Shown here: piece by piece, positions 3,394 through 3,481 of the stretch | How the letters are laid out: each line of letters opens with the position of its first letter | Position numbering within the stretch: the stretch's first letter is position 1 | NCBI RefSeq assembly: GCF_900102265.1 | Contig: NZ_FNBH01000002.1 | Coordinates: 310,001 to 374,000 of the forward strand | Source of the DNA: Epilithonimonas hungarica | GTDB taxonomy: Bacteria > Bacteroidota > Bacteroidia > Flavobacteriales > Weeksellaceae | DNA: 64,000 bases | Direction of reading: 5' to 3' | Notes under the pieces: generated by a model | The model's database searches: none | What the model saw: only the letters and a program-made list of their open reading frames with translations | Told to the model about the DNA's origin: nothing | Program-made: the position numbers and the translations under genes

Positions 3394-3481
3394 TGTAAAA
3401 AGTAAAATGTAAAAAGTATTAACGGCTTTTTATTAAATAGAAATTTAAAAAAAACATTGTACATATTACATTGTACATTAA
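3394..3481. repeat. Heptad-built inverted repeat between groES and groEL
   Basis: The left arm (3394-3421) is four 7-base units of consensus WGTAWWA. The right arm (3454-3481) is four units of consensus ACATWDW. The reverse complement of the right arm matches the left arm at about 19 of 26 positions, so the transcript can form an imperfect stem with a roughly 32-base loop. It lies wholly inside the groES-groEL spacer. Confidence 0.7.

Follow-up and report, generated by a model that had tools for sequence, protein, structure and literature searches.

Heptad-armed hairpins between protein genes of Epilithonimonas hungarica: probable relatives, in build, of 23S rRNA intervening sequences

What is a hairpin with arms made of repeated 7-base words doing in the short spacer between groES and groEL? 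The question is raised by a 64,000-nucleotide stretch of the Epilithonimonas hungarica genome (contig NZ_FNBH01000002.1, positions 310,001 to 374,000 of the forward strand; G000:C1:310001-374000 in our numbering of genomes and contigs), referred to below as the window. A first-pass annotation of this stretch had proposed two origins for the hairpin: a genome-wide family generated by slippage plus hairpin correction, or a selected RNA structure that balances groES and groEL. Our own answer, which we consider probable, is that the hairpin is a member, lacking an open reading frame (ORF), of a family of elements that resemble the intervening sequences (IVSs) of 23S rRNA and reside in spacers between protein genes. 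Full copies of these elements carry in the loop a gene for a 23S rRNA intervening-sequence protein (IVP), recognized here by matches to PF05635. At the level of sequence, the comparisons reported below demonstrate the architecture and spread of the family, the words shared by ORF-less and ORF-bearing copies, the coupling of repeat period to protein phylogeny, and the differences in words at fixed sites.

The spacer (3389-3494) separates groES (Cpn10; 3110..3388, + strand; Pfam PF00166, E 2e-33) from groEL (Cpn60; 3495..5117, + strand; Pfam PF00118). The GroEL protein shares 94-96% identity with those of four named Chryseobacterium records, in line with a probable Chryseobacterium-like flavobacterium. 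The left (5') arm of the element, at 3395..3418 on the + strand, consists of GTAAAAA/GTAAAAT words, and the right (3') arm, at 3454..3479, of ACATTGT/ACATATT words. Between them lies a loop (3419..3453) without an IVP gene; in three sister genomes the same spacer holds such a gene together with another word set. The 7-base period originally noticed in both arms is recovered by Tandem Repeats Finder (3.4 copies at 3395-3418, where the period-7 score is 13, and 3.7 copies at 3454-3479), and so is their imperfect pairing in register, positions 3399-3418 being 80% complementary to 3460-3479. The same design had been reported, with other words, from two further spacers of the window, and both prove to be stronger examples. 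One lies on the - strand between the malate synthase and isocitrate lyase genes, with one arm at 57610..57634 and the other, of TCTTTGT-type words, at 57640..57676 (period-7 score 14); complementarity is 76% over 57610-57634/57642-57666, and the RNA fold z-scores of the two strands are -2.86 and -4.05. The other lies on the + strand between convergent genes for a phosphoribosyltransferase-domain protein and uracil phosphoribosyltransferase (UPRTase). Its left arm of TTATGAG-type words (61519..61548) and its right arm (61555..61593; period-7 score 18) are 93% complementary over 61519-61545/61556-61582, with fold z-scores of -8.19 and -7.73. Both are supported by pairing, fold, period and matching words. 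An Rfam scan of the window returned no match, thus no 23S rRNA helix location; the element sits between the Cpn10 and Cpn60 genes.

How common are such hairpins? The genome comprises 3.96 Mb in 12 contigs, and our sample combined the window with 20 further stretches of contig C1, each 20 kb long, 464 kb in all (about 12% of the genome). Spacer segments were scored +1 for a match and -1 for a mismatch, with a threshold of 12 and dinucleotide shuffles as control. Non-coding spacers held 24 period-7 segments, against 3.0 in the shuffles. Multiples of 7 were also in excess (16 against 1.4 at period 14; 7 against 1.4 at period 21), and the remaining periods from 4 to 24 yielded at most 6 segments each (6 against 1.8 at period 8; 6 against 2.0 at period 10). 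A lack of 7-base excess over shuffled sequence, which the first-pass annotation had named as the result that would speak against it, was therefore not what we observed, and its idea of a genome-wide family of intergenic inverted repeats of 7-base period, with words varying from place to place, holds. Over-representation of tandem 7-nucleotide units in spacers is also what characterizes the heptameric simple repeats known as short tandemly repeated repetitive (STRR) sequences or long simple sequence repeats (LSSR); the cyanobacterial heptameric repeats go by the name STRR. Period-7 segments occurred in 19 spacers of the sample, which extrapolates to about 140-160 per genome. The genome has six IVP loci from seven PF05635 matches, two being pieces of one decayed copy, and thus roughly 25 ORF-less copies, by extrapolation, per IVP locus. 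Typical heptad hairpins are found at L008:16877, L006:4356, L020:1135 and L020:18608 (L numbers denote loci), and identical words reappear at unlinked sites, in this genome and in its sisters.

Other statistics were less sharp. In the window, with 5.5 kb of spacer, autocorrelation was 0.3505 at lag 7 against 0.3311 at lag 6 and 0.3231 at lag 8, with lags 2 and 3 equally high. Whole-spacer lag statistics over the 464 kb peaked at lag 7 (z 7.3); lags 6 and 9 were raised too (6.3 and 5.7), and segment counts were used instead for this reason. A hairpin-based spacer scan found 72 hairpins against 7 in shuffles, about 10 of the 72 being of the heptad type by eye. Mean arm periodicity in that scan peaked at 7 by a small margin only, since terminators and other repeats make up most of its hairpins.

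The link to IVP genes emerges from relatives. Among 23 genomes of the genus, the groES-groEL spacer could be compared at 22 loci (G017 yielded none). It is of the GTAAAA type in 17 of the 22, including two shortened to 52 nt (G021, G022), two degenerate forms (G014, G011) and one, in G019, whose left arm is short by exactly two heptads (14 nt). It is free of repeats in G009 (48 nt) and G001 (47 nt). In the remaining three (G016, G010, G018), the spacer contains a hairpin of TAGCTTT/AAAGCYA words whose loop encloses a gene some 120 codons long. This gene matches PF05635 (23S_rRNA_IVP, a four-helix bundle; TIGR02436), the IVP at L148 scoring 133.9 bits against a cut-off of 33.8. Structural relatives of IVP are PDB entries 2gsc (E 8e-22) and 2rld (E 1e-6), with five chains each. 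PF05635 matches above cut-off occur in all 23 genus genomes (1-9 each, 118 in total) and in none of 14 control genomes. A heptad hairpin with a loop gene also occupies the groES-groEL spacer of Flavobacterium cutihirudinis; this is one of two species with an IVP gene among 80 named groEL neighbourhoods, and the other, Mucilaginibacter lappiensis, has it without flanking repeats. By eye, repeats but no loop gene were seen in the corresponding spacers of Seonamhaeicola, two Winogradskyella and a Maribacter, and no repeats in most other named ones. A second site (L008:16877) presents the same picture: its spacer is without IVP in 21 of the 23 genomes, and an IVP gene stands at the same place in G006 and G002.

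We then turn the comparison round and ask what flanks IVP genes. The genus contributed the loci of 90 of its 118 matches, 247 drawn Bacteroidota genomes gave 30, and 196 drawn from the order gave 22 new ones (best-scoring matches and not a random choice); 12 of 39 plasmid records completed the set. ORFs were called in 88, 30, 21 and 12 of these loci, giving 151 IVP genes. Flanks of 130 nt per side were given a summed score, with at least 16 taken as positive, and compared with those of 903 control genes, which were not purged and may include IVP genes or neighbours of ORF-less copies. Measured against shuffles, both the genus set and the phylum set had an excess at periods 7, 8 and 14 (the genus at 15 as well) and at no other period. 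Period 7 was positive at 91 of the 151 IVP genes and 93 of the 903 controls, period 8 at 33 and 35, and periods 5, 6, 9, 10, 11 and 12 at 0 or 1 IVP genes and 3-18 controls. Taken together, period-7 or period-8 flanks accompany 123/151 IVP genes as against 123/903 controls (Fisher p 8e-63, a value overstated by counting orthologous copies as independent), with 69/88, 26/30, 17/21 and 11/12 in the four sets. An inverted match across the gene reached a score of at least 13 in 116/151 IVP genes (60/903 controls) and at least 17 in 73/151 (5/903 controls). The arms mostly contain 4-5 words (about 3 to 7; medians 4.4 left and 4.7 right). They have a polarity: G exceeds C in 68/76 left arms and C exceeds G in 69/74 right arms (arms scoring at least 10, from 130 elements), and the 5' side of the element is richer in G and purines. 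On plasmids, repeats flank 11/12 IVP genes and are inverted across the gene in 8/12; the hosts are Nostoc (three), Pseudanabaena, Anabaena, Calothrix brevissima, Geminocystis, Stanieria and Azospirillum for heptads, and Gemmatirosa and Picosynechococcus for octads. Many family members thus possess the hallmark of a 23S rRNA IVS, an inverted-repeat stem with an optional S23p/IVP ORF in its loop. The window copies are ORF-less, and ORF-less 23S rRNA IVSs exist as well.

Words tie the ORF-less hairpins of the window to particular IVP elements. The arms of each were compared with the flanks of the 88 genus IVP genes, with a small control of 12 shuffles per hairpin. The groES-groEL arms best matched L150, L153, L169 and L177-L179 (score 19; best shuffle 17; wrong polarity 14), the 57.6-kb arms L142, L143 and L159 (20; 16; 12) and the 61.5-kb arms L187, L223 and L189 (23; 19; 13). 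L223 is a decayed IVP element of this genome, and at L150 and L153 GTAAAA arms surround an IVP gene at another site. Five further hairpins of the genome beat the best of their own shuffles (scores 17-24). Judged by their words, the three window hairpins belong to three different IVP-element groups.

The period of the arms also follows the protein. The 151 elements divide into 90 heptad, 30 octad and 31 undecided ones, and no IVP cluster mixes periods 7 and 8 at either 80% identity (82 clusters) or 60% (54 clusters). On trees with one labelled row per IVP cluster (period-label threshold 16; an earlier labelling used 15), the period changes 9 times at 80% (71 rows; 1000 shuffles gave a mean of 16.1 and a minimum of 11) and 8 times at 60% (49 rows; shuffle mean 10.9, with 15/1000 as low). 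Single-linkage clustering of sites was abandoned as too coarse, with one cluster of 50, and was replaced by this collapse on IVP identity. Among IVPs at least 60% identical but with different neighbours, word similarity reached at least 14 in 27% of 33 pairs, against 1-3% of less similar pairs. Arms and protein thus remain associated, and we infer that the protein reads the arms. As to abundance, eight genomes without PF05635 had 0 period-7 segments and 1 period-8 segment in 65.0 kb of spacer. The 145.6 kb of spacer from eleven IVP-bearing genomes contained 59 and 21, as against 3.2 and 4.2 in shuffles, this genus supplying most of the positives (52/59 and 17/21).

At fixed sites, the words change. 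The second site, a spacer roughly 100 nt long with fixed flanks on either side, was compared in the 23 genomes and grouped by eye: it is filled by TTAGATG-type words in 4 genomes, GTAAAAT-type in 11, GATAATAGAC-type in 5, an IVP-bearing element in 2 and another filling in 1. Genus-wide searches covered this site and the 61.5-kb site. At the latter, TTATGAA, TGATAAT, GGTTGAT and TTGTTAA word types alternate among sisters, one-armed arrays extend up to 132 nt (about 18 heptads in G011), and G002, G008 and G019 have no scored repeat. Syntenic stretches for the 57.6- and 61.5-kb copies gave no alignable flanks, so no clean empty sites; the two element-free groES-groEL spacers were likewise too divergent for alignable empty and filled junctions, and no close pair was obtained. 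Three loci deserve separate mention. In G012 and G020 (L363, L365), the 61.5-kb site, where most sisters have heptad repeats, holds unrelated sequence of about 600 nt that is probably a small gene. At L010:15485-15570, as compared with L257, a whole heptad hairpin is inverted relative to its flanks between G000 and the sister genome G003. At L014:6841-6976, AAGTCAG-type and then AACCAAC-type heptad arrays, seemingly not complementary, fall within a predicted 1911-nt coding region.

Placement and selection bear on how the loop gene might be used. Bacteroidota IVP loci lie between co-directional genes in 133/139 cases (2 convergent, 1 divergent, 3 undetermined), and the IVP gene is in sense with its neighbours at 130 of the 133 co-directional loci. 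With so strong a bias, Bacteroidota IVP is presumably expressed from the host operon. The plasmid IVP genes L296, L297 and L304 are antisense to both neighbours. In seven orthologous sets IVP dN/dS is 0.05-0.16, values by which these genes are kept by purifying selection.

The element, then, is a hairpin with arms of tandem 7-nt words (8 in some subfamilies), full copies of which carry the IVP gene in the loop. The arms would fold into a stem within the operon transcript, and IVP would recognize the repeats with roughly one word per subunit, the solved relatives being five-chained and described as a pentameric ring. RNase III-like cleavage may then part the cistrons, as it does for rRNA IVSs. 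The ORF-less copies would either depend on IVP copies elsewhere or be relics of them.

Several observations weigh against this interpretation. The window itself has no IVP gene. The groES-groEL copy is the weakest folder of the three window hairpins (z -1.16; 23/200 shuffles fold equally well); folding alone would not reveal it and was dropped as evidence, and its status was therefore judged by its relatives. A search of 17 spacers that hold ORF-less copies turned up no IVP remnants, so that shared words are what suggests the descent of these copies from full ones. The strong inverted score is reached by fewer than half of the IVP genes (73/151), 28/151 have no scored repeats (for example L297 of Calothrix and L113 of Mucilaginibacter), and on plasmids L298, L299 and L305 carry same-sense repeats on both sides, not inverted ones. 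For the hairpin at L008:16877, wrong polarity also scores high (20 against 24). When each coarse site and label contributes a single row, the coupling of period to protein weakens (6 changes, 9/300 shuffles as low), and the coupling could reflect shared inheritance and not recognition. The comparison with IVP-less genomes is confounded by clade and base composition. Some IVP-bearing genomes have few repeats: G087, with 11 IVP genes, shows 0 segments in 6.4 kb of sampled spacer, and G213 and G055 show 3 and 2. Lastly, IVP genes at orthologous sites are under strong purifying selection, which suggests that they do more than spread selfishly.

This last point would be accommodated if IVP were a host RNA-binding regulator and the ORF-less hairpins its target sites, forming an intercistronic regulon that tunes operon expression. 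The low dN/dS and the sense orientation at 130/133 loci agree with such a role, as does the site that keeps a hairpin or an IVP element in all 23 genus genomes while its words change. ORF-less copies are co-directional in 14/17 cases, though so are 171/264 background spacers of this genome. A regulon is nevertheless hard to reconcile with the variation in the operons that carry copies, the groES-groEL copy being absent from 2/22 sister spacers and from many other genera, or with close relatives that differ in words at one site, and we consider it unlikely. The narrower proposal of a selected RNA structure specific to groES and groEL can hardly be credited. The GTAAAA form does persist in 17/22 sister spacers, but it is missing from two sisters, in three its place is taken by another element, a hairpin that encloses an IVP gene, four spacers are shortened or degenerate, the fold is matched by shuffles as often as stated above, and the same family occurs at many unrelated loci. 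The balancing role suggested for the hairpin by the first-pass annotation is not upheld by so variable a spacer.

A neutral by-product of replication is the other explanation that had been put forward: a polymerase slipping by 7 nt, as proposed by Mrazek 2007 (quoted in the part of PMC4679880 covered), combined with hairpin-templated correction, would leave heptad hairpins anywhere in A/T-rich spacers. Slippage fits the shifts of copy number by whole heptads (the 14 nt missing in G019), the existence of one-armed arrays such as that of G011, and the inversion of an entire hairpin between G000 and G003; as an account of how arms change, it stands. As the whole origin it is quite improbable, since the eight IVP-less genomes are nearly without repeats, a single gene family, PF05635, is repeat-flanked across phyla and base compositions, subfamilies of 8 instead of 7 nt track the protein tree, the arms have polarity and unlinked sites share words. 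Ordinary miniature inverted-repeat transposable elements (MITEs) or repetitive extragenic palindromic (REP) hairpins, mobilized by either a DNA transposase or a REP-associated tyrosine transposase (RAYT), would likewise be inverted, dispersed and non-coding, and Y1_Tnp genes are at hand (one in this genome, and present in 21/23 genus genomes). But that gene has palindromes of its own, GGCTAAAGCC or GGCTTTAGCC, unlike the heptad arms; the sisters G001 and G021 have heptad hairpins without Y1_Tnp; no conserved ends were seen, and the loop gene is not a transposase. Membership in the REP/RAYT class was rejected on these grounds, and we hold mobilization of this kind to be very improbable. The single RAYT-like Y1_Tnp gene lies at L020:11340-12020, and all six GGCTAAAGCC/GGCTTTAGCC palindromes of the 464-kb sample fall within about 700 nt around it. 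In four sister genomes (G013:C12, G017:C3, G005:C15, G012:C191) Y1_Tnp matches also occur at a distance of no more than about 1 kb from the second heptad site, and in others near several IVP genes, which may be orthologous linkage. IVP is related to Avd of diversity-generating retroelements according to passages of PMC10053308, and here Avd appears as a distant four-helix-bundle relative (NF033474, E 3e-5 to 1e-6; bAvd, 6e-4; all below cut-offs). This genome has no match to the reverse transcriptase family RVT_1, and a retroelement of that kind was set aside. Slippage alone, groES regulation, REP and diversity-generating retroelements are each contradicted by a specific test. The description that suits the element best is of something built and working in the manner of a 23S rRNA IVS but located elsewhere.

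How does an IVS-like family compare with systems already described? In the parts of PMC4990558 available to us, the Coxiella 23S rRNA IVS is bounded by terminal inverted repeats, encloses an S23p ORF in its loop and is excised by RNase III; three tandem heptamers (GACAGAT) upstream of the ORF vary in copy number among strains, and the Xanthomonas campestris S23p is cited as a homopentameric torus. The likeness lies in the inverted-repeat stem with an S23p-family ORF in its loop; the present elements differ in occupying protein-gene spacers, in having many ORF-less copies per IVP gene, and in arms made of 7- or 8-nt words. TAACTGA heptads of Beggiatoaceae, cyanobacteria and five Bacteroidota share tandem heptads, intergenic position, many words and indels in steps of 7 (PMC4679880, in part); they are described as direct repeats, whereas here heptads flank IVP genes on cyanobacterial plasmids. 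The covered parts of that text contain neither 'four helix' nor '23S' and make no link to IVP. The GGGAATC heptads of Xanthomonas and Nostoc, by the passages of PMC4692102 consulted, prefer four units and form two convergent arrays close by in 70 and 75 cases. The inverted pairs and the four-unit preference recall our arms, by description only as regards kinship; these repeats are discussed as G-quadruplexes, and 'four helix' and 'S23' occur 0 times in the portion seen. In P6b of the Nostoc trnL intron, the stem is built from one of two 7-nt motifs, and the word class has been replaced repeatedly at a fixed site (PMC4476775, in part), which resembles the swapping at our second and 61.5-kb sites. 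P6b sits in a group I intron, whereas the present hairpin lies between groES and groEL, and the P6b passages do not mention IVP; membership in that group was rejected by location. The original statement that no named element has this build is therefore nearly right, with the reservation that heptad stems, inverted heptad pairs and heptads have been described in Nostoc trnL P6b, in Xanthomonas and in a 23S rRNA IVS, respectively. A source seen in part lists Flavobacterium columnare 'four helix bundle protein' genes as phage region. In the open-access literature as covered, outside which most subscription papers fall, no paper linked IVP genes with heptad arms outside rRNA.

A few other features of the sample may be recorded. 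A further inverted repeat, AACCACATAGACACATAG ... CTATGTGTCTATGTGGTT, is dispersed over L015, L016, L018, L021 and L022; its arms are octad-like and similar in style to the octad IVP flanks of L252 and L253. Dispersed hairpins of the CTTCGACTCCGCTCAG type are found at L006:16191, L008:2309 and L015:4101. On the - strand of the window, 28425-52653 holds four adjacent very long ORFs of 2023, 2099, 1662 and 1950 aa.

Returning to the IVS-like family, some repeat-flanked IVP genes lie within CRISPR operons of cyanobacterial plasmids, between cas6 and cas4 (L298, L300) and between cas10 and cmr3 (L307). A 2023 clustering study of new CRISPR adaptation module associations names 23S rRNA IVP in a figure legend (PMC10910872, seen in part), and IVP elements in such operons may explain the reported association. 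IVP genes inside cas operons should accordingly not be taken for CRISPR components.

A broader and more tentative possibility is a lock-and-key arrangement: the ring of subunits of a given IVP subfamily would read a 7- or 8-nt word peculiar to that subfamily and thereby maintain, spread or replace hairpins of this word in transcribed spacers all over the genome, without a transposase or reverse transcriptase. One such system might also underlie the heptamers of cyanobacteria, Xanthomonas, Beggiatoaceae and Bacteroidota, the Nostoc trnL stem and the 23S rRNA IVSs, with cas and ribonucleotide reductase operons as landing sites. An over-representation of heptamer repeats has been noted in several phyla without an explanation, and the link between these repeats and IVP/S23 proteins gives each a testable partner. 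The IVP-element family would tie together several unexplained bacterial repeats, and the sister genomes provide a set in which the hairpins of one site carry different words.
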